From Victivallales bacterium (GTDB taxonomy: Bacteria; Verrucomicrobiota; Lentisphaeria; Oligosphaerales; Oligosphaeraceae): a stretch of DNA of 64,000 nt. The stretch lies in NCBI GenBank assembly GCA_017548425.1, contig JAFZAB010000166.1:1-64000 (forward strand), given 5' to 3'. How positions within the stretch are numbered: position 1 is the first letter of the stretch; every line of letters begins with the position of its first letter. The notes under the pieces were generated by a model. That model was not told where the DNA came from and ran no database searches. It saw only the letters and a list, made by a program, of their open reading frames with translations. This document shows, in pieces, positions 49,341-63,472 of the stretch. Both the position numbers and the translations under genes were made by a program.

Positions 49341-50732
49341 TTAAAAATTCCCATACACAAAAGGTGTAAATTCGACTGGATGGAAAAGTATAATCAACCA
49401 TATCATCGTAAATAGTATGGTATAGCTGAATAATGAACCATAGGGCAATTCCATAAATTTGTCAAGTCTCAATTCTTTTAGAATATGCCAAATAAACACT
49501 AAAAGTATTATTCCTATATGAAAAGGATTACACCAGAATACTCCTTTCTGACATAGAAACATCCTCTTTATGATACAATAGGCTTGTTGGCATGTATTTG
49601 CACGAAAGATAATCCATCCAAACATTACGCAAAGAAGTGTCAGTATGATACAAACACTTCGAATGATGGTATTGGTTGGATGAATCGTGTTTCTCCTCTG
49701 AGACCAGAGTTTATGGGAACACAGTAAAAGACCGTGCCAGATGCCCCAAACAATAAATGTCCAGTTAGCACCATGCCATAATCCTCCTAGTACCATGGTT
49801 AATAATTGGTTGAAATATGAACGTAATTTCCCCTTACGATTGCCACCTAAAGGAATATAGACATAATCTCGTAGCCAGTATGACAGTGAGATATGCCAAC
49901 GTCGCCAGAATTCCGTAATGTTTTGTGAAAGATATGGCCAATCAAAGTTTTCATTTATATGAAAGCCTAGCATTCGTGCACTACCGATAGCCATATTTGA
50001 GTAACCGCAAAAGTCGCAATAAATTTGTATAGTGTAACAGAATGCAGCAACCCATAGAGTCAAATAGTCAAATACTGCATAATTTTCAAAAACCTTATTT
50101 ACAAAAGAACTTAAGTGGTCAGCAATAAGTATTTTTTGGAAAAGACCTATTGTGAATTGGCGTAACCCATAGTAAATCTCCTTGGGCTGAAGTTTTTTTT
50201 CTTCAATAAGTTGTGTATGTATTTCGCGGATTCGGACTATTGGGCCAGCTACCAGTTTGGGAAAAAAGCAGGTTATTAGAGCGGTATCTATAAGACTACA
50301 GGGGATTTCTTTGCCCTTATAAACATCCGCTATCAGACTAATGCATTGGAAAGTAATAAATGAGATTCCAAGTGGCAAAAACATATGGACAACTGTAGGT
50401 CTTCGTCCAAATATAGCGCTAATTGTTTCTAGCAGGAAGTTGGTGTATTTGAATAAGACAAGAATTCCTAGAAGCAGAGTGATAGCGACATAGCAAAGGT
50501 ATTTACACAATTTATTGGGGGAGTTGTGTTGAGACTTCAAAGCGAGCATAGTGCCATATGTTACAAATACGTATACCAGCAATAATGGTAAAAAACGCAC
50601 ATCAACCCAAGCATAGAAATATAAACTTGCAATAAGAAGTAAGATCTTTTGTATAGTGTTATTCCGTAGAATATGTGTTCCTAGTATGCAAATAAATAGC
50701 AAAAACAAATATTCCAACTGATTGAAGTTCAT
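49341..50732 (-). CDS. MBOAT-family O-acyltransferase (AlgI-like)
   Basis: A 463-residue multi-spanning membrane protein. PLGISFITFQCISLIADVY, YCDFCGYSNMAIGSARMLGF, TEFWRRWHISLSYWLRDYVY and GLWHGANW with the catalytic His (~H320) mark an AlgI/DltB-type enzyme. Such proteins pass acyl (usually acetyl) groups across the membrane for transfer onto polysaccharides. Its ATG overlaps the SGNH gene stop (ATGA), so the two are coupled. It is the last gene of the locus. Confidence 0.93.
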   Translation of the reverse strand: MNFNQLEYLFLLFICILGTHILRNNTIQKILLLIASLYFYAWVDVRFLPLLLVYVFVTYGTMLALKSQHNSPNKLCKYLCYVAITLLLGILVLFKYTNFLLETISAIFGRRPTVVHMFLPLGISFITFQCISLIADVYKGKEIPCSLIDTALITCFFPKLVAGPIVRIREIHTQLIEEKKLQPKEIYYGLRQFTIGLFQKILIADHLSSFVNKVFENYAVFDYLTLWVAAFCYTIQIYCDFCGYSNMAIGSARMLGFHINENFDWPYLSQNITEFWRRWHISLSYWLRDYVYIPLGGNRKGKLRSYFNQLLTMVLGGLWHGANWTFIVWGIWHGLLLCSHKLWSQRRNTIHPTNTIIRSVCIILTLLCVMFGWIIFRANTCQQAYCIIKRMFLCQKGVFWCNPFHIGIILLVFIWHILKELRLDKFMELPYGSLFSYTILFTMIWLIILFHPVEFTPFVYGNF

Positions 50733-51748
50733 TTCAATAGTTCCTCTATAATGGCTTCTGCCACAATCCGATGCCCATCTGCATTGAGATGTCCTTCCCC
50801 AGGACATGTGTTGAAAAATCCACGAGGAAATTGATGTGTGGTTAGGGTAAAATCACAAAATCGTTTTTCAAGATTGAGAATCCCATTGCCAACAAGTCCG
50901 AATTCATGACTAACTTTATCAAATTGTTTGAATATCTCAGTTTCCTTATCTTCAGTGATTATGGCATTATTTTGAATGCGTGGTACTATAGGTACATAGA
51001 CAATCAGCAGTTTTTTATCGTTTGAAGAAATCTTCAGGGTATTTAACATATCGCGCCAATATGCTTCATAATATTGTTTATGGGAAGATGTATCTAGGGT
51101 GTAAGTTTTTTCCCGTCTCCAGTGATTCCCAGTAAAATCTAATCCATTCCGAAAACAGATTTCTGTTTTTTTCAGTATGTTTCGAAATGCCATCAAGCGT
51201 AAACGATAGGATAGAAAACCTAGCTTTCCTTCTATTTTTCGGAATGGATAAACTGGACGTAGTGACTTGAAATCAGTTGTTTTATTTGGAGGCAAAATAT
51301 CAGATATATCAGCAATAAGCAAGATATTTGTATGAACATTGGAAATAATATGGTCATAGATGTTCATTAAGTGATTATATTCAACACATCGGTTACCACT
51401 TATGCCTATGCCGATGCAAGGTGTGCCCTTTGCAGATAACTGTGCCTGTATTCGATCTTCCGGGGCGACCATGTTTGCTTCAACATAACTGTCACCAAAA
51501 AGTAGAATTTTAGGACTCGTTGATGTAACTCGCTGTGCATCACTAGCTTCTAACCCTAATTCCCCATAGTAGAAGGTATTCCAATTTTCCTTCCTTTCAC
51601 GTTTCATCGTGCCCGGTATTGGAATGGGAAGGCCTATTATCTCATCTTTTTGACATATTGTTGGAGTGGTCAGCAAAAATGCTCCCAAAAACCAAATGGT
51701 TAAAAGAGATATGAAAAAGGCTATGAGAATTTTTATTATATGTCTCAT
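50729..51748 (-). CDS. membrane-anchored SGNH/AlgX-like acyl transfer protein
   Basis: A 339-residue protein with one N-terminal membrane helix (residues ~4-26) and a periplasmic SGNH hydrolase-like domain. LLFGDSYVEANMV carries the Ser (~S87), and NADGHRIVAEAI supplies the conserved C-terminal His block. In AlgX/AlgJ/PatB-type pairs such proteins place the O-acyl group on the glycan. The ATG at 51748 gives the membrane anchor directly; a longer frame upstream has no support. It is coupled to the MBOAT gene. Confidence 0.85.
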   Translation of the reverse strand: MRHIIKILIAFFISLLTIWFLGAFLLTTPTICQKDEIIGLPIPIPGTMKRERKENWNTFYYGELGLEASDAQRVTSTSPKILLFGDSYVEANMVAPEDRIQAQLSAKGTPCIGIGISGNRCVEYNHLMNIYDHIISNVHTNILLIADISDILPPNKTTDFKSLRPVYPFRKIEGKLGFLSYRLRLMAFRNILKKTEICFRNGLDFTGNHWRREKTYTLDTSSHKQYYEAYWRDMLNTLKISSNDKKLLIVYVPIVPRIQNNAIITEDKETEIFKQFDKVSHEFGLVGNGILNLEKRFCDFTLTTHQFPRGFFNTCPGEGHLNADGHRIVAEAIIEELLK

Positions 51749-52016
51749 TTTATTATATTTATGTTCTGTGATAAATCTAATGGTGGTTATCAAGGGGGAG
51801 ACACACGAAGAAGGCGCATAAGTGAATACGATGAAAATTTCAGTTTGAAAATACTCACGCGGGCCACAGACGTTAGCACCATCCGGACAGCGCCGCGCAA
51901 ACAAATGCGGCATTCCTGCTATTGCCCATCATTCAGTTTTTGAAATTGACGGATTGCGGGCTGGTGGATGTTCAGAATTTCAAGATTATTGGATAAAGTG
52001 TTTTGGGTTTAGATCA
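51749..52016. other. junction between SGNH and MurF-like genes, with ade remnant
   Basis: This 268 bp gap has a piece of apparently unrelated sequence (51760-51909) followed by the ade 3' remnant. It is the inner junction of the inserted MBOAT/SGNH cassette. No terminator is obvious. Confidence 0.6.
51910..51998 (+). pseudogene. remnant of an adenine deaminase 3' end
   Basis: The sequence encodes, in an open frame ending in TAA, a diverged copy of the last 28 residues of adenine deaminase (GLVDVQNFKIIG instead of GLVDVQKFKIIG at the end). Six substitutions separate it from 49206-49294, several synonymous or conservative, so it came from a working relative of the gene rather than a fresh duplication. 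It cannot be expressed as a protein here. It points tail to tail at the MurF-like gene, 18 bp away. Confidence 0.9.
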
Positions 52017-53480
52017 TTACAAGATTTCTGACGGCCATAGAGCCATTATGACTTTTTCCAGCTCCATGCTATGACTTGCCTTGAATAAAACTAAATCACC
52101 ACTATTCATGATTTCTTTTAGTCGTGTTGTCACTTCATCCAGAGATTGGCATTTGTGAATATCGAGTTTTCCATTGTTTATAATGGAATCAGCTGCTTTG
52201 CACATTTCTTCGCCAATGGTGATTAAATAGTCAAATTTAGACTGAACAACATATTGTATCACATTGGTGTGCATTTCGGAAACCAATGTACCGCTCTCCT
52301 TTATGTCTCCCAGCACGGCAATTCGTTTCCCTTCAACAGGAATCCGCTCTGCAGCATCTATCGCCGCTTTGATGCTTTTTTCAATGGCGTTATAGCAATC
52401 TGCATACACAATGATATTGTCTTTTGTATGGACTACGTTCTGTCTTATTCCTTCTGTTCTATATTTCCCTAGTCCTTTCACAATATTTTCCGGCGATATG
52501 CCGTCACAAGCTGCAACAGCAAAGGCATACAATGCACACAGTGCATTATGTGCCGCGTATATATTATTTAAAGTGATTTGATATCTGGCACCATTTTCTT
52601 TTACAGTTATGGAAAAAGACAAGCCGTTATTTGATGTGTATATATCCTGTACCCTAAAGTCTGCGTCTTCATTTTTCTCTGAAATCGTAATGATTTTTTG
52701 TTCCTTTAACAAATCAACACGATTGAATTCGTCGATGTTAACAATAACCGTACCATTTTTCGGCATGTGTTTTGCAATAGAACATACCTCTTCAACAATT
52801 TTATCATCGTTTTCAAAATTCATGAAATGTGATTTGTCTATTGAAGTAATCACAAATATATCAGGGCGAATCATTTCGGAAACATATTGTGTTTTGCCTG
52901 GAGTGCCTTCATGAATTTCTTGAATCATTCTTTCGGTTCCATCGGGTATTGTTTGCACAGCCTGCCCCACTGACCTTCGCGTATTAGCATTGCTTGAATT
53001 ATAATATGTTCTGTAAGTTGTCTTGTAAATTTCACCAATCATGTTCTTTGTTGTTGTCTTGCCAATACTTCCTGAAACAGCAATAACTTTTACCTTATCA
53101 TGAAGGTCGCGGTAATATCTTCCCATTTTGGCAAATACTGCCAATGGATTATCTGTTATCATACATGGATATTCGTCAAAATTGTCTTGGGTGATAAGAA
53201 GAATGGCTCCTTTACGAACAGCATCTGCTGCATTCTGCCTAGTCTCAACCATGCATGCATTTTGTGGTGAAATGCTGAATGACATATATATCGAATCCAA
53301 TAAACAAAGTTCCATAATGACTTTGTTACTGTTTTCTTTTCCTTTATCATTCAACTGGACATTACAACCTTGCTTTTTTAAATATTCAAGAAAAAAAGCA
53401 ACTGTCTGATATTTTTCAGGATTCAAAATCCGTTTCACTGATGGTAACGAAATCAAGTAATGATATAATTTCTTAATCAT
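52017..53480 (-). CDS. MurF-like Mur ligase family protein in a polysaccharide locus
   Basis: A 487-residue ATP-dependent amide ligase of the Mur family, closest in pattern to MurF. The nucleotide loop SGSIGKTTTKN is near residues 133-143, NIDEFNR follows, and the C-terminal domain has KSIKAAIDAAERI and LGDIKESG. The N-terminal part lacks the usual UDP-MurNAc-peptide-binding features at a glance. The neighbours are a flippase and an ATP-grasp protein rather than division and cell-wall genes, so it may add an amino acid or amine to a glycan. The ATG at 53480 is chosen. Confidence 0.85.
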   Translation of the reverse strand: MIKKLYHYLISLPSVKRILNPEKYQTVAFFLEYLKKQGCNVQLNDKGKENSNKVIMELCLLDSIYMSFSISPQNACMVETRQNAADAVRKGAILLITQDNFDEYPCMITDNPLAVFAKMGRYYRDLHDKVKVIAVSGSIGKTTTKNMIGEIYKTTYRTYYNSSNANTRRSVGQAVQTIPDGTERMIQEIHEGTPGKTQYVSEMIRPDIFVITSIDKSHFMNFENDDKIVEEVCSIAKHMPKNGTVIVNIDEFNRVDLLKEQKIITISEKNEDADFRVQDIYTSNNGLSFSITVKENGARYQITLNNIYAAHNALCALYAFAVAACDGISPENIVKGLGKYRTEGIRQNVVHTKDNIIVYADCYNAIEKSIKAAIDAAERIPVEGKRIAVLGDIKESGTLVSEMHTNVIQYVVQSKFDYLITIGEEMCKAADSIINNGKLDIHKCQSLDEVTTRLKEIMNSGDLVLFKASHSMELEKVIMALWPSEIL

Positions 53481-53502
53481 ATATAAATATTGGACCTTTT
53501 TG

Positions 53503-54978
53503 TTATTTTTGTTTCCGTTCCCAAAATTTGAATTTAGAAGGAACAAGGCTCAAGGCATATTGATATGAATCAGGTTTGAAAGCCAATGACCACCCTAAGA
53601 ATAATACGATAAATACAATCCCTTTCAATAGACCGTCCAAATAATCATTATTCAAATGCAACAGTCGTATTGAAAAATATGTTATGAGTGAAATTAGAAA
53701 TACCGCACCAAAAGTAGGAGCAAGGTCAAGCAATTGCCTATGCCATTTGTAACCGATGTATTTTGAAACTAATCCGATATTGACAAAGTAACATAAACAA
53801 ATGTAAAGGACATAACCTGCCAGCAGTCCCTTCATTCCCCATAACAACAAACCCCCGACCACCAATGTCGAGCCTGTAGAACGTTTCAGTAATGTCCATC
53901 CAAACATCGCACGGCTTTTCCCTATGGCTGCGATGGACTGCGTATTGACAGCCTGCAGGCAGGTGACAATACCGCATATGCACAAAACCTGAAAATACGG
54001 GACGCTGGGCAACCATCGGTCGGAATACAGCAATAAAAATACAGGTTTTGCGATTATTAATAATAATGATAGCAACGGAAACGTTATATAAGCAATTGTC
54101 TGAGTCAGCCGTTTTATCATATTGCCAAGCAGATTCCTGTCATCCTGAACCTCAGCGTACAAAGGATATGTTATTTGTGTTAATACGGATGAAATGCTAC
54201 GGGATGCAAGCCCCTCTGTCGTTACAGCCTTTGTATAATATCCCAATACGGCTGGACTATAGATCTTTCCGATCAATAACTGCGAAATCTTAGCCCCAAA
54301 TTGATTGATAATATGTGTCAGAAACATAAAGCCACCGAATTGAAATAATTCTCTAAAAGAATCCTTGGAAAATACCAACAACGGAAACCATTTATTTGTC
54401 GTCCAATAAATAATAGCCGGTATGATTGTACTTAATAAATTCATGCTGACAAGTGCCCAGACCCCAAATCCTTTATATGCCAAGAATATGCAAATCGTAA
54501 GTGAAGTGACCGAAGCCACCAAAGATACGATTGTTAGTTTTTTAAAGCGGAAATTCTTCTTCAATTGATTAATTTGGATACTGGAAAGGGAATCAATTAT
54601 CAAAGTCAAGCCCTGAACTCTAAGTAACGAAGATAGCAACGATATGTTGTAGAATCTGGAAATGGTTGGTGCGAACAAAAAAAGGATAGAATACATAAGT
54701 AATGACATTGCCATGTTAAAGAAAAAGATGGTGGAATAATCTTCTTGTGTTGGTCTCTTTTTCTGGATTAGGGCAGAAGCAAAACCACAGTCAATAAAAG
54801 AGCTTGAAATCACCATGAAAATGGACAACATGCCAATGCAACCATAATCTTCAGGCTTTAATAAGCGAGCTAAGATTATGCCTGAAATAAAACGGATGCC
54901 TATGGCTGAGAACTTCGAGATTGATGTCCAAATTATTCCCGAGACAGCTTTTTTCTTAAGATCATTTTTTTCAGACAT
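53503..54978 (-). CDS. polysaccharide flippase (Wzx/MOP family)
   Basis: A 491-residue integral membrane protein of the MOP superfamily with ~14 helices, from GIIWTSISKFSAIGIRFISG to the end. It moves lipid-linked oligosaccharide units to the outside of the inner membrane. Its ATG lies inside the ATP-grasp stop region (8 bp overlap) with AGGAG in between, so translation is coupled. Confidence 0.9.
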   Translation of the reverse strand: MSEKNDLKKKAVSGIIWTSISKFSAIGIRFISGIILARLLKPEDYGCIGMLSIFMVISSSFIDCGFASALIQKKRPTQEDYSTIFFFNMAMSLLMYSILFLFAPTISRFYNISLLSSLLRVQGLTLIIDSLSSIQINQLKKNFRFKKLTIVSLVASVTSLTICIFLAYKGFGVWALVSMNLLSTIIPAIIYWTTNKWFPLLVFSKDSFRELFQFGGFMFLTHIINQFGAKISQLLIGKIYSPAVLGYYTKAVTTEGLASRSISSVLTQITYPLYAEVQDDRNLLGNMIKRLTQTIAYITFPLLSLLLIIAKPVFLLLYSDRWLPSVPYFQVLCICGIVTCLQAVNTQSIAAIGKSRAMFGWTLLKRSTGSTLVVGGLLLWGMKGLLAGYVLYICLCYFVNIGLVSKYIGYKWHRQLLDLAPTFGAVFLISLITYFSIRLLHLNNDYLDGLLKGIVFIVLFLGWSLAFKPDSYQYALSLVPSKFKFWERKQK

Positions 54979-56053
54979 GGTCTCCTACCAATTCATGAAA
55001 TTTTCGTCTCAAACCTATTTGGGTGGTCGTTTGCTGCCCAAGCAATTGCCCCCAGTTGCCTTCCACAAGTACCCACCCATTGTCTGTTAATGCAAAATCC
55101 CATGCAATATAAACATGCTTCCCGAAGACCTTTCTATGAAGCTCCTCAGCGGTTTGAAGCAATTCAGCCCATCTTGGAACTTGCCAGCCTTTGAACTTAA
55201 GTCCCGAATCTGGATGTATTTCAAAGTGATTGTTAGAATTGTCGACCCCATCGGATGTCACTGTTCCAGATTGCGGATCTACACTCACGACAATGCCGTT
55301 TGAGCCAAGATTATCGACAATGGCGCCTTTCTTGCCAGTTCTCATTCGCGTCCAGATTACAGTGAATTTACCATTGCATAAAAATGTTGGCACGCGGACC
55401 GTGTTGACGGAGCTTTCGTTCCATTGCGCCATTTCTGCAGCCTGGCAGATACGTTCCTCTATAATCCAAGCTGGATGTTCTTCCAGCAATTCAGAAAAAC
55501 AGCGTCTGGAACTTTCATCATCAATGTATGCAAACGAGCGGCTCCCTTCCCCTTTAGAAGTATCCAGCGGTTTGATGAAGACACTTCTCTGTTTATGGAT
55601 AAAATCGACAAATTCATCTACTGACGATTGATTATCGATTTTTATAGCGTTTCTTTTGAAATATGCTTTAGTCATAAGATAGAAGTTATATTTATTTTTT
55701 ATCTCTTCCATAAAGACTTTCGGAGGAGTGATTTTGCAGAGCGTGTCAATTCTGTCCATATCGGTTTCGAACTCCCATCGCTCGTTGGCATTCAGCTTTC
55801 TAAAATTGAAGAGAAAATATTCATACGGCAGGGCTTTGTATTGAAGCCAGCACTTGACGATGTCCTCCGTTAGTTTGCGGATTGTTGGCTTGTCTTTGCG
55901 TTCGTTTTCTGACAAATATGTGTCAAATGCTTCGTTCAGCATGACACGGAACGTTTTGTCGTAACCGCATATCGTATCCATCATTCGCTTTTTGAAGACA
56001 ATGGATTTTAATGCCAATGGCAAATGATTGTATATTACTCTTTTTAAACTCAT
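54971..56053 (-). CDS. sugar-transfer-associated ATP-grasp protein
   Basis: A 360-residue protein with an N-terminal helical domain and an ATP-grasp ligase fold. FIKPLDTSKGEGSRSF near residue 140 is the ATP-binding glycine loop, IIEERICQ supplies a nucleotide-contacting segment, and LVEGNWGQLLGQQT near 335 holds metal ligands. It matches the ATP-grasp family that is found in exopolysaccharide clusters (ATPgrasp_ST type), expected to form an amide or ester bond to a carboxylate. It lies at the right edge of the AT-rich block. Confidence 0.82.
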   Translation of the reverse strand: MSLKRVIYNHLPLALKSIVFKKRMMDTICGYDKTFRVMLNEAFDTYLSENERKDKPTIRKLTEDIVKCWLQYKALPYEYFLFNFRKLNANERWEFETDMDRIDTLCKITPPKVFMEEIKNKYNFYLMTKAYFKRNAIKIDNQSSVDEFVDFIHKQRSVFIKPLDTSKGEGSRSFAYIDDESSRRCFSELLEEHPAWIIEERICQAAEMAQWNESSVNTVRVPTFLCNGKFTVIWTRMRTGKKGAIVDNLGSNGIVVSVDPQSGTVTSDGVDNSNNHFEIHPDSGLKFKGWQVPRWAELLQTAEELHRKVFGKHVYIAWDFALTDNGWVLVEGNWGQLLGQQTTTQIGLRRKFHELVGDHV

Positions 56054-56094
56054 AATTGCTTTATTATGTTACAGATGCGAACTGCTATAAAACA

Positions 56095-57018
56095 CTATGG
56101 ACTAAACCTGCCCGCCTGTGTTTCACTCGTTTTCGGAAAAGGAAATGGACGATTTTCTTTTCCGAAAACGAGTGATGCGATTCGTGGTTCGAAACAACAG
56201 CATGGCCTGAGGCAGACGATTCGCACGCCGCTTGCCCGCTGCGGGCCGACCTTCAGGAATGTCGCTAGAACGGAATGGTTTCCATGCAGACCGAGTGGGC
56301 CGATGTCCGCCTCGTTCACTTGCGCTGTGATCCGCCTTTCCATATCGCTCTGCCGTGCATAATTTCCATCAACCAAGGCTCCCAGCATAAGGGAGCTGGC
56401 CTCGAAATGAGATCGCCCGATGCCCACGCCGAGCGTGCAGGGGGTGCAACCCAGTTGCGCGACGGATTCCTTCGCCCAGCTGACGATTTCATCCAAAACG
56501 ACCTTTGCGTCATGCTTGTGGAAGATGCGGAGCGTTTTTGCGCGGATGGCGGGGCCGCCGCCGAACATCAGAATGTGGAGCTTCAGGCCGTCGCCGTCCG
56601 TCCGCCTTAGAAGAAACGGCGCGGGCAGGACACCTGCGGAATCTTGATCAAGACCTCCTGATTGGTCGATGCGCTGTTCATCGTCGCCCATGATACCCAT
56701 GGGGCGGCCGGGCAGCCGTCTCAAGCCGTCCGCCACGCCTTGGTGGATGGCGTCCAGAAGGTCGCTTGTCAGGACGGCGTTGCGTCCCGCGTCCAGAACG
56801 AGATGCGGGATTCCCGTGTCGTCGCACAAAGGACTTTTCTGCCTTTCCGCCGCATCCGCATTTTGGAGGATGGTCTCCATGACCCATTTCGCGCGCGGAT
56901 TCGTCTCTTCGGCGATGGCTTTACGGTAAGCTTCTTTCTTGTCTTCCGTGAAAGTCGAACCGGCTGTGACCAGCGTGGTAGCGACCTTTTCCACGATTTC
57001 GTCATAAGACATATTCAT
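56095..57018 (-). CDS. fumarate hydratase / tartrate dehydratase alpha-type subunit
   Basis: A 307-residue protein like the N-terminal half of class I fumarase (TtdA). The Fe-S ligands are present: C65 in LCDDTG, C191 in LGCTPCTLGVG, and a third in CLRPCC (C269 or C273). The family normally ends soon after that; here residues 282-298 are encoded by a 19 bp inverted repeat and add a probably non-homologous tail. It overlaps the beta subunit by one base. Such pairs hydrate or dehydrate hydroxy-dicarboxylates: malate, tartrate or related acids. Confidence 0.87.
   Translation of the reverse strand: MNMSYDEIVEKVATTLVTAGSTFTEDKKEAYRKAIAEETNPRAKWVMETILQNADAAERQKSPLCDDTGIPHLVLDAGRNAVLTSDLLDAIHQGVADGLRRLPGRPMGIMGDDEQRIDQSGGLDQDSAGVLPAPFLLRRTDGDGLKLHILMFGGGPAIRAKTLRIFHKHDAKVVLDEIVSWAKESVAQLGCTPCTLGVGIGRSHFEASSLMLGALVDGNYARQSDMERRITAQVNEADIGPLGLHGNHSVLATFLKVGPQRASGVRIVCLRPCCCFEPRIASLVFGKENRPFPFPKTSETQAGRFSP
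56123..56175. repeat. perfect 19 bp inverted repeat inside the alpha-subunit 3' end
   Basis: Arms 56123-56141 and 56157-56175 are perfect complements with a 15 bp spacer. It lies at the change from AT-rich to GC-richer DNA and inside the reading frame of the alpha subunit. It could be an end of a mobile element, an inserted repeat or a strong attenuator. Confidence 0.8.
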
Positions 57019-57521
57019 CAGTAGATGCTCCTTCCATGCGCGGCGGCGATGATGGCGGGATAGCGGTCCACTTTCAGACAGTAGAGCGCCTCCATGCCGA
57101 GTTCGGGGAACGCGACAAGCTGCTGTTCAAGCGTCTTGGCTCCGAGCAGGGCGGTCACAGGCGGGATGACAGCATAGACGGCGTTGAATTTGTCCAATGC
57201 CGTGACCGTTTCCGCGTGGATGGCGCCTTTGCCCAGATGCAGTTTGACGCCCGCTTCTGAAAGTGGTGCGATACTGGATTCAATCTCCAGTTTGTTGCTG
57301 GACGTCGGTCCAACACCTGCGGTGCTGACCGCAGTGTGGAAAATTACACTGCCTTGCAGATTTACGTCCAGTTTGCCAATCGTGCCGTCAAGGTGCATTT
57401 TAACAAGTTTCGGCAGGACGGCGTCGCGGCCACAGTAGATACAGCCAGACAGATAAATCATGTCGCCGACCTTAAGTTCAGCGATTGTCTTGTCGTTAAT
57501 CGGTGTGGTTATTTCCTTCAT
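57018..57521 (-). CDS. fumarate hydratase / tartrate dehydratase beta-type subunit
   Basis: A 167-residue protein like the C-terminal half of class I fumarase (TtdB): GDMIYLSGCIYCGRD at 20-36, GPTSSNKLE near 74 and LGKGAI near 98. It pairs with the alpha subunit. The beta gene precedes alpha, the reverse of the usual ttdA-ttdB order. I chose the ATG at 57521; a TTG two codons upstream is possible. No strong ribosome site is visible. Confidence 0.87.
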   Translation of the reverse strand: MKEITTPINDKTIAELKVGDMIYLSGCIYCGRDAVLPKLVKMHLDGTIGKLDVNLQGSVIFHTAVSTAGVGPTSSNKLEIESSIAPLSEAGVKLHLGKGAIHAETVTALDKFNAVYAVIPPVTALLGAKTLEQQLVAFPELGMEALYCLKVDRYPAIIAAAHGRSIY

Positions 57522-57604
57522 GTTCAATCAACAATTGCTGACTTTTGTGTGTTAGTTTCGGTAAATGTTTTTACAAGTGACAGTCGAAGTCATCTACATG
57601 CCTA

Positions 57605-58750
57605 TCAATTCACTCCGAATAAATCGAAGTAGCTGGCTTCATTTTCGATGACGCCGTAAGCCCGTGCGCGCATTTCAATTTTCTCCGCCCAACAGCGGTG
57701 CGGTCCAATTTCGTTCATGCCCTTGGTACCTTTCACGACACCGCCGGATGTGTTGAGAATCTGCTCGGCGTCCATGTACTCCTCTTTTGTCACGGCCAAC
57801 ATGCCGTTGATGAAATTCAGATGCGTGGGATGAATGCATGTCTTACCCATGAAGCCGTTTGCCTGATCCAATACGAGTTCGCGCATAAGGCCGTCCACGG
57901 CGTCATTGACGATGACGGGGCGCTTCAGCAAGGTGCCTTGCATGCTCATTCCCGCGCCTGGCGTTGCATCGGAGAATTTCATGCTCTTGTTGGCCCGGAA
58001 ATACTCCCAGACGGGGCCGGAGATTGTGTAGTCGTTGTCGCGAGAGAAGACGTTTAGGATGTCCATGAGGCAGTCGCGAACAGTGATGATGTCGTAGATG
58101 GAATAGTCGATGCCGCGCCGTACGCCGAAGCAGGAGGAGAAGTCCGTGCCACCGACGCGGATGTTCAATATCAAATCCCTGTATTCATCCACGAACTTGC
58201 GGATGCCGAGCAGTTCATCCATGCGGCTTTCCTTGAAGGCCACGCGGCGATCTTCTATGATGGGCATGCCGTAGAGAATCTCACCGTATTCATCGTTCAT
58301 GTCCTTCAGATGTGAAAGGTAGGCCCCCGCGTTCGACATATTGAATTTCGGAAAATTGAAGCCTGTGACAAGCTTCAGATGCTCCGGTTTCAGCATAGCC
58401 CCGAAATGCTTGAACTGCTCGATGTTCCTCACGCGGAAAAAAATCAGCGGTAGGTCATCGTAAGAAAAGTTCCCATTGCTGATTGCTTCGCAGATGATGT
58501 TCAGAAGATGTAGTGAATTGTGTTCAGCGGACGGCACGTCCTCTTCTTTGCATGCATCCTCGAAACATAGGACCATGGACGTCAGCCCCTTGTACTTCTG
58601 CGTCAGGATCGCCTGTGCGAAGTCCTTCGTGCCGGGCATATACATGGTGGCGCCGAGGCAGTACTGGAGAAGGGAGCGATCGGTATGCTTGTCGAAATGT
58701 TCCGGTTCTTTAAAAAAATGGAATGTTGGATTATAAAGATGGTGTCTCAT
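57605..58750 (-). CDS. HpcH/HpaI / citrate lyase beta-like TIM-barrel lyase
   Basis: A 381-residue TIM-barrel protein. LGATMYMPGTKDFA, GLTSMVLCFEDACKEEDV and GKTCIHPTHLNFI fit CitE-type enzymes that break or make C-C bonds next to a carboxylate. The opening resembles the larger C-C-bond lyases that sit in ter-type stress clusters, but no TerC/TerD-like gene is near. In the locus it is placed between an ATP-grasp ligase and the fumarase pair, as if all served a dicarboxylic or hydroxy acid. Confidence 0.83.
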   Translation of the reverse strand: MRHHLYNPTFHFFKEPEHFDKHTDRSLLQYCLGATMYMPGTKDFAQAILTQKYKGLTSMVLCFEDACKEEDVPSAEHNSLHLLNIICEAISNGNFSYDDLPLIFFRVRNIEQFKHFGAMLKPEHLKLVTGFNFPKFNMSNAGAYLSHLKDMNDEYGEILYGMPIIEDRRVAFKESRMDELLGIRKFVDEYRDLILNIRVGGTDFSSCFGVRRGIDYSIYDIITVRDCLMDILNVFSRDNDYTISGPVWEYFRANKSMKFSDATPGAGMSMQGTLLKRPVIVNDAVDGLMRELVLDQANGFMGKTCIHPTHLNFINGMLAVTKEEYMDAEQILNTSGGVVKGTKGMNEIGPHRCWAEKIEMRARAYGVIENEASYFDLFGVN

Positions 58751-58774
58751 GAAAAACGCCTTGTTCCTGAATAC

Positions 58775-60031
58775 CTATGGCTTGAAATACAAGTCCTTGC
58801 GTAATATTGGCTTGCCATCTTTGGAGAATGCCTCAAGGCGCGACATCGCAAGGCTAACTTTTTCGCCCACTTCTCCCCGTGTACCGCCTTTCACGATAAA
58901 GGCACCAATTCGGCCTGCACTCGCTCGATCGTTTGAAAGGGGCATGCCTTTGGTCTTGTGGTAATGGAAGGCCTCGATTACACCGTCTTTTACAAGTTCG
59001 TCAACACCGGTTATGTGGTCGAAAATGTTTGGTTCCCCATAGATGATATCGACGCATTGGTAGCATGTGATATCGTGGTACGAGAGTGCCACGCGTTTTT
59101 GGAGATACGAGTCAATGGTCGCGGAAATAATGTCGAAGCCTGTGTTTTCACGGATGGTACGATAGCTGATACCGCCGCCGACACGTGGGGCGAATTCGAT
59201 GATACTGATGTCGTCTCCGTTGATGATGGCCTGGACATGGAGCGGCGTATTGTCCAATTTGAACGCATTCGCGATGTCTGTTGAGGCCTTGCGGAGCTTT
59301 GCCATCGCAGAGTCTGAAATGGCTGGCGGCGTGACAGTCGCATAGCATTTCAATACTTGCGCATCCCCTTCGATGACGCTGAGGCGTTCCGAAACCATGA
59401 TGACATTGGCCACGCCGTCCTGTACAAAACAATAGGCGCTGACTTCCGTGCCTTCAAAGAACTCCTCCACGACCGTCCGGCCTGTCCGGCTGATTTTTTT
59501 CGCATCCTGCAGGAACTGTGCAAGCTCATTGGCGTTCGACGCCTTTTTCACACCTGACGCGGCGCAACTGTCCGCCGGCTTCACCATTACAGGATACCGC
59601 AGGTTGAAGGAAGGCAGTTCTTCGCCATTTCCCAGATAGTAGTATTTCGTCGTCGGAATATGGTATTCCGACATGACTTGTTTCATGATTCCCTTGTTTG
59701 TGATGGCCTGCGCAGTTTGATAGCTGTAAGGTCTTGTCAGTCCCAATTTTTCAGCTACATAGCATGCGGTAATGTTGGCTTGGTCAACGCATGCGCTAAT
59801 CACCAGTTGCGCGTTATGGTCCTGCGCTAGTTTCAGGATGGCGTCTTGATCCAGCGTGCTTGCACGGTCATGCAGGTCCGCCGCGGAACGGGCAGGCGGA
59901 TTCTCAAGATAATCCGCAAGAATGACAAAGTAGCCGCGTTTCTTCAGTTGGTTGATTAATTCTATATGCGGATTTGTGCCGCCAAGGACAATCGCCACAG
60001 GTGATTTGCCGCTTTTCATTAAGATATCCAT
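58775..60031 (-). CDS. ATP-grasp family carboxylate-amine ligase
   Basis: A 418-residue protein. An N-terminal Rossmann-like part (AIVLGGTNPHIELINQL) is followed by ATP-grasp features: MVKPADSCAASGVKKA near 148-163, VVEEFFEGTEVSA near 188 and IIEFAPRVGGGISY near 272-285. It probably activates a carboxylate as acyl phosphate and joins it to an amine or thiol; partners are unknown. A second in-frame ATG at 60019 is also possible. It is one of two ATP-grasp genes in the locus. Confidence 0.85.
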   Translation of the reverse strand: MDILMKSGKSPVAIVLGGTNPHIELINQLKKRGYFVILADYLENPPARSAADLHDRASTLDQDAILKLAQDHNAQLVISACVDQANITACYVAEKLGLTRPYSYQTAQAITNKGIMKQVMSEYHIPTTKYYYLGNGEELPSFNLRYPVMVKPADSCAASGVKKASNANELAQFLQDAKKISRTGRTVVEEFFEGTEVSAYCFVQDGVANVIMVSERLSVIEGDAQVLKCYATVTPPAISDSAMAKLRKASTDIANAFKLDNTPLHVQAIINGDDISIIEFAPRVGGGISYRTIRENTGFDIISATIDSYLQKRVALSYHDITCYQCVDIIYGEPNIFDHITGVDELVKDGVIEAFHYHKTKGMPLSNDRASAGRIGAFIVKGGTRGEVGEKVSLAMSRLEAFSKDGKPILRKDLYFKP

Positions 60032-60229: not shown

Positions 60230-61132
60230 TTATCTAATGCTTCCTTTCGGAGATTGGACGGCTTCCGGATAGTATGCGTCGATTACGCGTTTGACCAACG
60301 AGACTTGCTTCGCGCGTTTTTTGGCGTCATCGACGGAGCTCTCCCAACTGTGCGTCTGTGCGACGGAGCCGCCAGTCTTCAGGTAGATGGGAGCCGCGAC
60401 TCGGATCATTTCGGGGACTTCATAATGACGGATGAATCCGCCCGTCGATTGGGGGTTCTCCGTGTGGATGTCGATCGGGATGTCGATGGCCTGCCGCATG
60501 GCGGCGAGCATCTGGAGCTGGATGTCCCGTACGGGGTTGATGGAGTTAGCCCCGATACTCTCCAACAGCTTTGCGGAACATGGGTTGCCGTGGCCGGCAT
60601 GAGCCGAGACCTTGAACTTGCAGTCCACTGGAATTTCACCCGCCTTGCGCATCTCGTTGAGCAGCCACAGGCAGCCTTCGTCATAGACCAGAAACGAACG
60701 GCAGCCGAGTGAGGCGGCCCGCTTCACGTCTTCCACGGCGCGGACGACCTGCTCCTGTCCACGAAGGCGGTAGCCCATGCGGACACCCTCCGGCGTGTTC
60801 ACGGAGGCGCTCGTGTCCGTCGTGGCGCGTGGCCCGATGGCGAGGATCAGATCCGTTTTTGCGTCTTTCGCCATCTTCACCATTCTGGTGATGTCTGAAT
60901 CGGCCAACAGCATGATGCCCTTCGTCTGCGTCACGCGATGCAGATACAGGCCGTATTTGTCAATGGCCTCCAGAAGAGCCTCCATGACGGCGGGGCCTTG
61001 GATGCCAGGGACTTCGAAACGATATTGACCGCCGTCCGAAAATCTCTTTTCGGAAGTCGGCAGGTCGTAGGCGTCGCCGCCCGGCAGGCCGATGGACTTC
61101 AAAAATGCACGAGTCTTCTCCATGCTGTTCAT
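60230..61132 (-). CDS. U32-peptidase-like TIM-barrel protein
   Basis: A 300-residue protein that fits a group usually annotated as U32 family peptidases, although it is probably a TIM-barrel enzyme of other function. Features are DLPTSEKRFSDGGQYR near 18-34, AIGPRATTDTSA near 110, KFKVSAHAGHGNP near 174 and GGFIRHYEVPEMIRVA near 230. Its true activity is unknown. The ATG at 61132 is chosen by an AGGAG 8 nt upstream. It lies in the same operon as the PrpD-like and CitE-like genes. Confidence 0.65.
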   Translation of the reverse strand: MNSMEKTRAFLKSIGLPGGDAYDLPTSEKRFSDGGQYRFEVPGIQGPAVMEALLEAIDKYGLYLHRVTQTKGIMLLADSDITRMVKMAKDAKTDLILAIGPRATTDTSASVNTPEGVRMGYRLRGQEQVVRAVEDVKRAASLGCRSFLVYDEGCLWLLNEMRKAGEIPVDCKFKVSAHAGHGNPCSAKLLESIGANSINPVRDIQLQMLAAMRQAIDIPIDIHTENPQSTGGFIRHYEVPEMIRVAAPIYLKTGGSVAQTHSWESSVDDAKKRAKQVSLVKRVIDAYYPEAVQSPKGSIR

Positions 61133-61164: not shown

Positions 61165-62490
61165 TCATAAAGATTGAAGCAGGCCCATGTCAATCCCGTT
61201 GCCAAGCAATGCGAGGCACTGCCCGGCGAGTTCCCCATCGCATTCCGCATAGGCCAGAAGCGACTGGATCTTGTCTGTCATGTCTTCATGAGACATGGGA
61301 TTTTCCGGAGCTCCTTTTGCGCAGTCAACGGAATATGAAAACTCCTCGCCGTTTTTTGCCGTGACGACAACTGTCGCGTAACGGGCGTCGGGCGGGAGAG
61401 TGGTTGGACAGGGAGCCTCCTCCACGGCGACTTTGGACGCAAGCTCAAGAATGTCCTGACGGGTGACCGTCTTTTCGTCGAAGGCCTCAAGACCTGCCTG
61501 CCCCAGAATCAATGCCGCGGCGACACTGTACGGAATGCTGAGCTTCGCGGACGGGGAGCTCTTTATCACGATGTGGTCGTGCCCCTTGATGGCCAGCTTG
61601 TACGTCTTCACAAGAATCCGCGAGATGTCCTGCGGCTTGATTTTGTCCCGCAACGCAAGTGTGGCCTCGATGGCGGAATGGCAGTGGCGGCAGGCCGCGT
61701 AGGGCTTCACATAGATGCGCTCCATTTCAAAATAATCAGTCTGCGCGGTCAGTTTTTCCAGGTTGTGTTCGTCCGTGAACAGCTTGAGGAAGCCGCGGTC
61801 GCCGTCCAGCATGTCGTCCGGACCGCGCATGGGCGTGAATCCCATGGTGGCGGCCGTGAGGCCGTCCATGGCCGCACGACCGAGATTGTATGGCTTCAAC
61901 TGCGAGTCCTGTTCCTGTATCTCCAGCATGCCGGCCGCGCTTGCGACGGCCGCCGACAGGACCGTTTTCAACTGTGTTGCGTTCATCTTCAAAGCGAACG
62001 CGACGGCGACGGCGGCGCCGACCGTGCCGCATGTCGCGGCGGCGTGGAAGCCTTTCTTCTTGTGGCCGGGCTGGATGGCGATGGCGAGACGGCAGGCCGC
62101 TTCATAGCCCATGACAGCGCCACGGAGAAAATCGTCTGTCGAAATATCGTTGACGGAAGCGGCTGAAAGCAGGGCGGTCATGACGGATGCCCCCAGATGG
62201 ATCATGGCGAAGCGCTGTCCGTCGTCAAGTTCGAGGCAGTGCGCGTTGTAGCCGTTGACTAGGCATGCCGTGCGCGCGTCCGTCTTCATGCCGTAACCAA
62301 TCAATGGTGCTCTTCCTGGCTCTGCGTGGAGGAGAAAATCGTCCCATGCGCTCTTCATGGCATGGGCCCCCGCCTCCGTGACGGCGATGTAGTCGGCGAG
62401 GCAGGCCTTCGCCTTGCCGAGGACGGACGGTGTGATGGCCGTCTGCTTTTGGATGAGATATTCGATGAAACGATCCGTGGTGTTTTTCAT
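61165..62490 (-). CDS. MmgE/PrpD family protein
   Basis: A 441-residue protein of the 2-methylcitrate dehydratase superfamily (immune-responsive gene 1-like fold). VNGYNAHCLELDDGQRFA near residue 77-94, GYEAACRLAIAIQPGHKKKGFHAA near 127 and YAACRHCHSAIEATLAL near 267 are hallmarks. Relatives dehydrate 2-methylcitrate or decarboxylate cis-aconitate. No prpB/prpC is next to it, so a methylcitrate cycle is unlikely. It lies 7 bp downstream of the dehydrogenase gene. Confidence 0.9.
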   Translation of the reverse strand: MKNTTDRFIEYLIQKQTAITPSVLGKAKACLADYIAVTEAGAHAMKSAWDDFLLHAEPGRAPLIGYGMKTDARTACLVNGYNAHCLELDDGQRFAMIHLGASVMTALLSAASVNDISTDDFLRGAVMGYEAACRLAIAIQPGHKKKGFHAAATCGTVGAAVAVAFALKMNATQLKTVLSAAVASAAGMLEIQEQDSQLKPYNLGRAAMDGLTAATMGFTPMRGPDDMLDGDRGFLKLFTDEHNLEKLTAQTDYFEMERIYVKPYAACRHCHSAIEATLALRDKIKPQDISRILVKTYKLAIKGHDHIVIKSSPSAKLSIPYSVAAALILGQAGLEAFDEKTVTRQDILELASKVAVEEAPCPTTLPPDARYATVVVTAKNGEEFSYSVDCAKGAPENPMSHEDMTDKIQSLLAYAECDGELAGQCLALLGNGIDMGLLQSL

Positions 62491-62497
62491 GATGGAT

Positions 62498-63472
62498 TCA
62501 ATGGAACTGGTATCTGGCTTGCTCGATTTCGGACAGACGCCCGAGCTCGAACAACTCAATGTTGCGCATCGCGTCGGTCATCATGGCGCGGAAGGAATCC
62601 GCCGTGACGCCCGCGACGTGTGGCGTGAGGATGATGTTGGGCAGTGACTTCAGGGGGTATTCCGCAGGAATTGGTTCGGTTTCGTGGACGTCCAGACCCG
62701 CGAACGAGAGTCTGCCATCCTGCAGGGCGGCATGGAGGGCGGCGGAATCGACCAGTCCACCGCGGGCCGTGTTGACCAGAATGGCGCCGCGTTTCATTTG
62801 GCTGAGCGTGGTGCCGTTGATCATCCTGCTGTTTTCATCCGTCATCGGGCAGTGGAGGGAGACGATGTCGGATTCGCCCAGAAGCGTGTTGAAATCCGTG
62901 TGTTCGACGGATAGTTCATGTTCTGTTTTTTCGTCCAGTCTGTACGGGTCGAAATAGAGGATGCGGATGCCGAACGGATTCAGCAGCCTTGCGACTTTCC
63001 GTGCGATGCTTCCCATCCCGACGAGACCGACTGTCTTTCCGTGCAGTTCGAATGTCCGGACACCTTGCTCCTGTTTTTTCCAGATGCCCGCGACGGTGTT
63101 GTTGTGGATTTCCGTCAGGCGGCGGAGGCAGGCCAGCATCAGAAGCAGGGCGTGCTCCGCCACGCTCTGCGAGTTGACGCCTTTGTTGACGTACAATGGA
63201 ATATTGTGCCTGCGGAGCGCTTCCAGATCGATGGAGTCAAGTCCGACGCCGGAACGTTGAACCATCTTCAGACTCGTTGCATGGCTGAGGACGTTTTCAT
63301 CGATGCGGACACGGCCGCCCGCGAGAAGATAGTCCGCGTTGGCGATTGATTCTGCAAGGCAACCAGCTGACGGCTCCTCCAGCATGGAGAAGCTGAACCC
63401 CGCAGGCAACGCACTTTTGACAATGTCAAGCGGTGTACCTGAATAATGGTTTGTTAGAAAAATTGTTTTCAT
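62498..63472 (-). CDS. D-2-hydroxyacid dehydrogenase (SerA/GhrB type)
   Basis: A 324-residue NAD-dependent dehydrogenase. GLVGMGSIARKVARLL near 151 binds NAD, TARGGLVDSAALH gives the Arg region and LTPHVAGVTADSF gives the catalytic His (~288). It resembles phosphoglycerate dehydrogenases without an ACT domain. In the operon it may make or use a 2-keto acid that the other enzymes rearrange. It follows the partial glycosyltransferase gene by 28 bp. Confidence 0.92.
   Translation of the reverse strand: MKTIFLTNHYSGTPLDIVKSALPAGFSFSMLEEPSAGCLAESIANADYLLAGGRVRIDENVLSHATSLKMVQRSGVGLDSIDLEALRRHNIPLYVNKGVNSQSVAEHALLLMLACLRRLTEIHNNTVAGIWKKQEQGVRTFELHGKTVGLVGMGSIARKVARLLNPFGIRILYFDPYRLDEKTEHELSVEHTDFNTLLGESDIVSLHCPMTDENSRMINGTTLSQMKRGAILVNTARGGLVDSAALHAALQDGRLSFAGLDVHETEPIPAEYPLKSLPNIILTPHVAGVTADSFRAMMTDAMRNIELFELGRLSEIEQARYQFH

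Follow-up and report, generated by a model that had tools for sequence, protein, structure and literature searches.

A conserved, probably acid-forming module and dissimilar ATP-dependent ligases in a glycan locus of a Victivallales bacterium: a possible route to an amide-decorated surface polysaccharide

What does a bacterium make with three types of ATP-dependent amide-forming enzyme encoded beside a polysaccharide flippase and an O-acylation pair? The question was raised by the first 64,000 bases (the window) of the 87.6-kb contig JAFZAB010000166.1 of a Victivallales bacterium (assembly GCA_017548425.1; draft genome of about 4.9 Mb, 86% complete), in which an earlier note had proposed, from positions 49341-60031, a surface glycan carrying amino acids or organic acids in amide linkage. 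Using our own open reading frame finder and tblastn for gene calls, we confirmed by matches far beyond chance that this span encodes, all on the minus strand, an MBOAT O-acyltransferase, an SGNH-type protein, a MurF-like ligase, a Wzx-type flippase, a sugar-transfer-associated ATP-grasp ligase (ATPgrasp_ST) and a second ATP-grasp ligase (AG2), and no peptidoglycan gene other than the MurF-like one was seen in the locus. The span also holds three further enzymes (CCL, TtdA and TtdB) and is directly preceded by three more (TIM, PrpD and HADH), so that the minus-strand order from 63472 to 49341 is HADH, PrpD, TIM, AG2, CCL, TtdB, TtdA, ATPgrasp_ST, Wzx, MurF-like, SGNH-type, MBOAT. We give an even chance to the reading that the product of this locus is a surface glycan bearing O-acyl groups and, in amide linkage, one or more organic acids synthesized for the purpose.

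The three ligases do not form one set. At about 56.05 kb, where the two modules of the span meet, guanine-plus-cytosine (GC) content changes abruptly: the five genes from ATPgrasp_ST to MBOAT range from 0.36 to 0.42 (0.32-0.45 at third codon positions, GC3), compared with 0.51-0.59 (GC3 0.59-0.74) in the seven upstream genes, and GC3 is 0.45 in ATPgrasp_ST against 0.64 in the neighbouring TtdA. The span chosen in the earlier note crosses this border with AG2 on the high-GC side; AG2 belongs to a metabolic module, and the other two ligases, ATPgrasp_ST and the MurF-like protein, are encoded apart from it in the low-GC block. An amide-bearing glycan remained the best reading of the locus, and the idea of a single ligase set did not.

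The high-GC module begins with HADH (62498..63472), an NAD-dependent D-2-hydroxyacid dehydrogenase by NCBIfam hydroxyacid dehydrogenase models (72% identity to its counterpart in G079, which is from the same family), and continues with PrpD (61165..62490), a dehydratase/isomerase-like protein of the MmgE/PrpD family (NF006943, 7.8e-9; 66% identical in G079). TIM (60230..61132) is a TIM-barrel protein without a Pfam or NCBIfam match, whose homologues are annotated 'U32 family peptidase'. AG2 (58775..60031) is an ATP-grasp_4 carboxylate-amine ligase (PF13535, 8e-15; 55.2 bits, gathering cutoff 27) and CCL (57605..58750) a CitE/HpcH-like C-C bond lyase (PF15617, 2e-111; 372.7 bits, cutoff 28.4), followed by TtdB (57018..57527; PF05683) and TtdA (56095..57018; PF05681, and TIGR00722 above cutoff), the C-terminal and alpha subunits of a fumarase/tartrate dehydratase. 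The Ter genes expected with a Ter-operon C-C bond lyase were not found among the scanned genes of the window operon, and the match of AG2 to ATPgrasp_Ter was below cutoff.

To place this module we aligned four TIM proteins, used the alignment to scan GTDB contigs and compared the best 80 of 491 confirmed stretches. TIM was 80-89% identical in these 80 loci, which came from Bacillota, Bacteroidota, Fibrobacterota, Planctomycetota, Kiritimatiellota and Lentisphaerota, and the rest of the core accompanied it in most typed loci (CCL 74/77, TtdB 72/77, TtdA 71/77, PrpD 68/77). The loci fell into two types, one with a PPD-like thiamine decarboxylase (57 loci, 54 of them with an aldo/keto reductase and 49 with PrpD) and one with a 2-hydroxyacid dehydrogenase (HADH in 16, an unrelated LDH2-type enzyme in 4; PrpD in 19 of the 20). 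When terminal enzymes were counted within 9 kb in the 63 loci flanked by 3.5 kb or more in both directions, 62 had exactly one of the three (HADH 14, LDH2-type 4, PPD-like 44), one had none, and none had two. The sole exception, L113 from Kiritimatiellae, has the core TIM-CCL-TtdB-TtdA, and neither a terminal enzyme nor PrpD was detected within its flanks; in L096, where the core is of the PPD type, there is also a HADH gene, but beyond the 9-kb limit. Along the TIM tree the locus type switches 12 times by parsimony, at least six of the switches being forced by starred branches.

PPD, HADH and LDH2 enzymes share 2-oxo acids as substrates, and since each can stand in for the others next to the same core, we infer that the shared core product is a 2-oxo acid, which would be reduced to a 2-hydroxy acid in the window's type. 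At 393 bits, the PPD of the sister type exceeds the cutoff (312.5) of TIGR03297, the model for phosphonopyruvate decarboxylase, and phosphonates are known on surface glycans, two points for a module that makes a phosphonate substituent derived from phosphonopyruvate. However, phosphoenolpyruvate mutase (TIGR02320) exceeded its cutoff in 4 of 36 module-bearing genomes and was absent from the window genome and from G079, which makes an ordinary phosphonate route unlikely; we also know of no phosphonate route with these dehydratase and lyase genes, and consider a phosphonate product very improbable. The LDH2-type enzyme was nearest to the sulfolactate dehydrogenase model, below cutoff. For TIM itself, an AlphaFold2 model of medium quality (mean predicted local distance difference test score, pLDDT, 70) gave as best Foldseek matches class II aldolases, a U32 peptidase and the isocitrate lyase/phosphoenolpyruvate mutase superfamily, at template-modelling scores of about 0.5, and these matches named no reaction. 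Distant TIM homologues (34-47%), annotated as U32 peptidases, also occur on Thermomicrobium and Enterobacter plasmids (L006, L007), beside a mandelate-racemase-like gene or, in Enterobacter, in a biosynthetic-looking cluster; their annotated neighbours did not include the other core genes.

The ligase of the module followed the locus type. AG2 relatives were present in 20/20 dehydrogenase-type and 21/57 PPD-type loci, and at 37% identity or more in 13/20 and 0/57, respectively (Fisher p 4e-10, a value in which kinship of the loci overstates their independence). A tree of 53 AG2 relatives placed the window protein, which is 63% identical to the copy in the Bacteroidales glycan locus L044, in a clade of 18 rows, all of the dehydrogenase type apart from one untyped, and the inner sets of this clade that hold the window protein had 97-99 support in the Shimodaira-Hasegawa-like approximate likelihood ratio test (SH-aLRT). 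Since this clade was found only beside dehydrogenase-type cores, AG2 probably couples the acid of the module to an amine. An acid-amine ligase of this kind needs a free carboxylate and an amino sugar; the module would supply the former and neighbouring genes the latter; in the sister loci, a DesI-like sugar aminotransferase (nearest model DesI, below cutoff) was present in 13/20 dehydrogenase-type against 7/57 PPD-type loci. Moreover, glycan markers accompanied 20/20 dehydrogenase-type and 24/57 PPD-type loci.

Could HADH-PrpD-TIM-AG2-CCL-TtdBA instead be a catabolic or fermentative acid pathway that sits in a glycan locus by chance? LysR regulators or TRAP-type permease genes were found in 14 of the 44 flanked PPD-type loci, and 11 other flanked PPD loci had neither these genes nor glycan markers, as would suit such a pathway. 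The window's type, in contrast, had glycan markers in 20/20 loci, always with an ATP-grasp gene and never with LysR or permease genes, and an ATP-consuming ligase is of no obvious use in an energy pathway; we think chance placement unlikely, though it is the strongest of the alternatives. The PPD-type loci with LysR and TRAP-type genes form a second, possibly transport-linked setting of the pathway: in L067, L075, L081, L097, L099 and L115 the PPD-type core lies near or after genes for LysR-type regulators and large TRAP-type permease proteins, in most cases without glycan markers. A different arrangement was seen in G079 (C49, 33-93 kb; L028/L038/L039), where a glycan locus combines a PPD-type core with three genes for ATPgrasp_ST, four or more for AG2-like ATP-grasp proteins, several for PrpD and a HADH-PrpD pair that stands apart, and has no MurF-like gene.

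Taken as a whole, we tentatively propose, at slightly less than an even chance, that CCL-TtdAB-PrpD-TIM forms a 2-oxo acid by a route not described before, which has spread horizontally among gut bacteria of at least six phyla and has an exchangeable end step (either decarboxylation followed by reduction, or direct reduction to a 2-hydroxy acid), and that in the dehydrogenase form an ATP-grasp ligase of its own attaches the acid to a surface glycan. A literature search, with limited coverage of subscription journals, returned no description of this acid module or gene set.

On the low-GC side, the block opens with ATPgrasp_ST (54971..56053), a clear member of its family (PF14397, 1.9e-42; 145.8 bits, gathering cutoff 31.4), for which a role as amide ligase on the glycan is predicted; the adjoining Wzx gene (53503..54978; PF13440, 5.8e-88) gives it a sugar-transfer context. 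Wzx is 56% identical to the flippase of L044, a locus that carries the same acid module, an ATPgrasp_ST gene and, adjoining the latter, a CapA-like (PGA_cap) gene. Neither CapA (PGA_cap) nor CapC, which stand beside the ligase in poly-gamma-glutamate synthesis (CapB/PgsB), was found in the window locus. Elsewhere in the window genome (G000:C154, L027, 8172-11542), a second ATPgrasp_ST, 39% identical to the window's, lies by a CapA-like PGA_cap gene and a gene for a 406-amino-acid protein without a Pfam match. The block ends with the SGNH-type gene (50729..51913; GDS motif at residue 140, no Pfam match), a presumed periplasmic partner in acyl transfer judging by its pairing with MBOAT, and the MBOAT gene (49341..50807; PF03062, 1e-32), whose true start is probably inside the called reading frame, near 50732.

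The MurF-like ligase (52017..53480 from ATG, or to 53546 from TTG; PF08245/PF02875) scored 252.5 bits with the MurF model TIGR01143, under the cutoff of 288.6, and was 25-30% identical to MurFs, with the P-loop GxxGKT[TS] kept as GSIGKTTTK. The N-terminal motifs DSR, FVALKG and DGH, which we take to be the donor-binding motif of MurF, were lost, and a conserved lysine of the middle domain, presumably the carbamylated lysine of Mur ligases, was replaced by valine at position 232; the same position has serine in relatives from G485 and isoleucine in a relative from G1072 (alignments read by eye). Among the columns conserved in 21 MurF relatives, the protein kept 4/12 in the N-terminal domain compared with 18/23 in the C-terminal part, a pattern that points, as far as sequence comparison goes, to a loss of the donor contacts for which the earlier note had proposed a check; an AlphaFold2 model made without an alignment had a pLDDT of 35. 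The identity to MurFs and the kept P-loop and C-domain motifs would suit a decaying copy or an additional peptidoglycan MurF that has diverged. However, the gene is not the only murF, as a canonical one lies elsewhere in the genome (G000:C85:5493-6932), the donor-binding stretch and the lysine are gone, the protein groups outside the MurFs with the two lysine-lacking G485 proteins (100/99, long branches), and a 38% identical relative that also lacks the lysine lies in a polysaccharide locus; a diverged or decaying MurF is therefore scarcely probable.

That relative, in the Clostridia genome G1072, directly follows a TupA-like ATP-grasp gene (PF14305) in an otherwise unrelated polysaccharide locus that also encodes glycosyltransferases and another TupA-like protein. 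Searches showed the MurF-like family to be rare in the genomes covered. Neither the 288 further genomes of the phylum nor the 295 of the order to which G388 (Bacteroidales) belongs had a match at E<=1e-45 or 1e-50; one match of 31% was found in 295 genomes of the order of G400 and one of 39% in 95 genomes of the order of G392, and 391 genomes of the class of G1072, with few candidates scored per genome, gave no further match. A single-sequence scan of GTDB contigs gave no matches either, probably because the chosen patterns were not the conserved ones, and plasmid matches looked like ordinary MurFs. In G485 (C159, L143, 579-9762), two MurF-like genes flank a B12-binding radical SAM gene, in the company of an octopine-type dehydrogenase, an NTP-transferase/aminotransferase fusion and DUF1015.

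These settings bear on whether the ligases might produce a small, peptide-like metabolite for export instead of a substituent of the glycan. ATP-grasp and Mur-type ligases serve metabolite synthesis too, the G485 relative (30%) keeps company with the B12-radical SAM enzyme and the octopine-type dehydrogenase, and the Enterobacter-plasmid TIM homologue lies in a biosynthetic-looking cluster. In the window's locus, however, Wzx is accompanied by a putative Wzy, a NusG-like regulator, several glycosyltransferases and two pairs of MBOAT and SGNH genes, and we saw no peptide exporter there, which leaves a metabolite improbable. The larger glycan locus, of which the span forms one end, begins with a NusG-like gene about 14 kb past the window and includes, beyond the window, glycosyltransferases, an adenylate-forming-like gene, the second MBOAT/SGNH pair, an acyltransferase-3-like gene and the putative Wzy, identified by eye except where Pfam was run. 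One protein of this part (L003, 14727-15722; C153, about 74.7-75.7 kb) matches STELLO glycosyltransferases (PF03385).

In the amide-decorated glycan that we favour, CCL, TtdAB, PrpD and TIM would assemble a 3-substituted 2-oxo acid, HADH would reduce it to a 2-hydroxy acid, and AG2 would activate this acid as an acyl phosphate and join it to an amine, probably an amino sugar or an amino acid. Less firmly, ATPgrasp_ST and the MurF-like ligase might attach additional units by amide bonds to a sugar carried on a lipid or a nucleotide, after which, going by family roles, Wzx would flip the unit and MBOAT and the SGNH-type protein would O-acylate it outside; we infer the order of ligation and all substrates.

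Several observations weigh against this scheme. The whole 18-row AG2 clade had an SH-aLRT of 83, and the core is not glycan-specific, as some PPD-type loci have LysR and TRAP-type permease genes and no glycan marker. No close DesI-like aminotransferase that would supply the amine acceptor was found in the 86% complete window genome (best 34-35%). For the association of MurF-like and ATP-grasp genes, part of what the earlier note had proposed to search for, there is one good parallel and not a statistic, the pair with the TupA-like gene in the polysaccharide locus of G1072; no MurF-like gene was detected near the 80 TIM loci at E<=1e-8. These 80 loci are, besides, the nearest relatives of the query rather than a random sample, mostly from metagenome assemblies and many of them on short contigs.

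Acyl groups on surface sugars often decide recognition by the immune system and by phages. If the proposal is true, dozens of gut species in six phyla share the same unnamed acid pathway, and with a core protein at 80-89% identity and a swappable last step its product could be tested directly in strains already in culture. A TIM-barrel family at present labelled as peptidase would also gain a function, as would an uncommon branch of Mur ligases that stands outside peptidoglycan synthesis.

How far do known systems resemble this one? Iyer et al. reportedly predicted in 2009 (as cited in PMC3765264; see also PMC4431377) that ATP-grasp amidoligases act in surface-polymer operons and modify glycans. 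The earlier note could name no described system with this gene set, and none was found in the literature searched; ATP-grasp enzymes in glycan loci are nevertheless known, both from the Pfam name of the ATPgrasp_ST family and from the TupA domain of Campylobacter jejuni. To our knowledge, the Vibrio cholerae O1 locus draws on a different set of enzyme families. Its O-antigen, a tetronate-bearing perosamine, is alike in that dedicated genes of the locus provide a small hydroxy acid with which an amino sugar is acylated (PMC3441752), but here the core is CCL/TtdAB/PrpD/TIM with an ATP-grasp ligase; the aminotransferase that makes the amino sugar in a system of the O1 kind has a DesI-like counterpart in 13/20 sister loci and none nearer than 34-35% in the window genome. 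In the C. jejuni capsule, the TupA-like ATP-grasp domain of Cj1438C was shown to form an amide on the glycan (PMC11800379), and the G1072 MurF-like relative adjoins a member of its family (PF14305); Cj1438C, however, uses the carboxylate of glucuronic acid in the glycan, whereas the window has PF14397 and ATP-grasp_4 enzymes and a route that would supply a separate acid. Finally, SfmE of Shewanella oneidensis, an ATP-grasp_4 protein of similar size to AG2 (412 amino acids), acts in flagellin glycan modification, where its deletion lowers the mass of modified flagellin (PMC3765264), probably through amide formation by the ATP-grasp enzyme; the likeness to AG2 is one of domain and size, and the described sfmABCDE operon is without the CCL/TIM/PrpD module.

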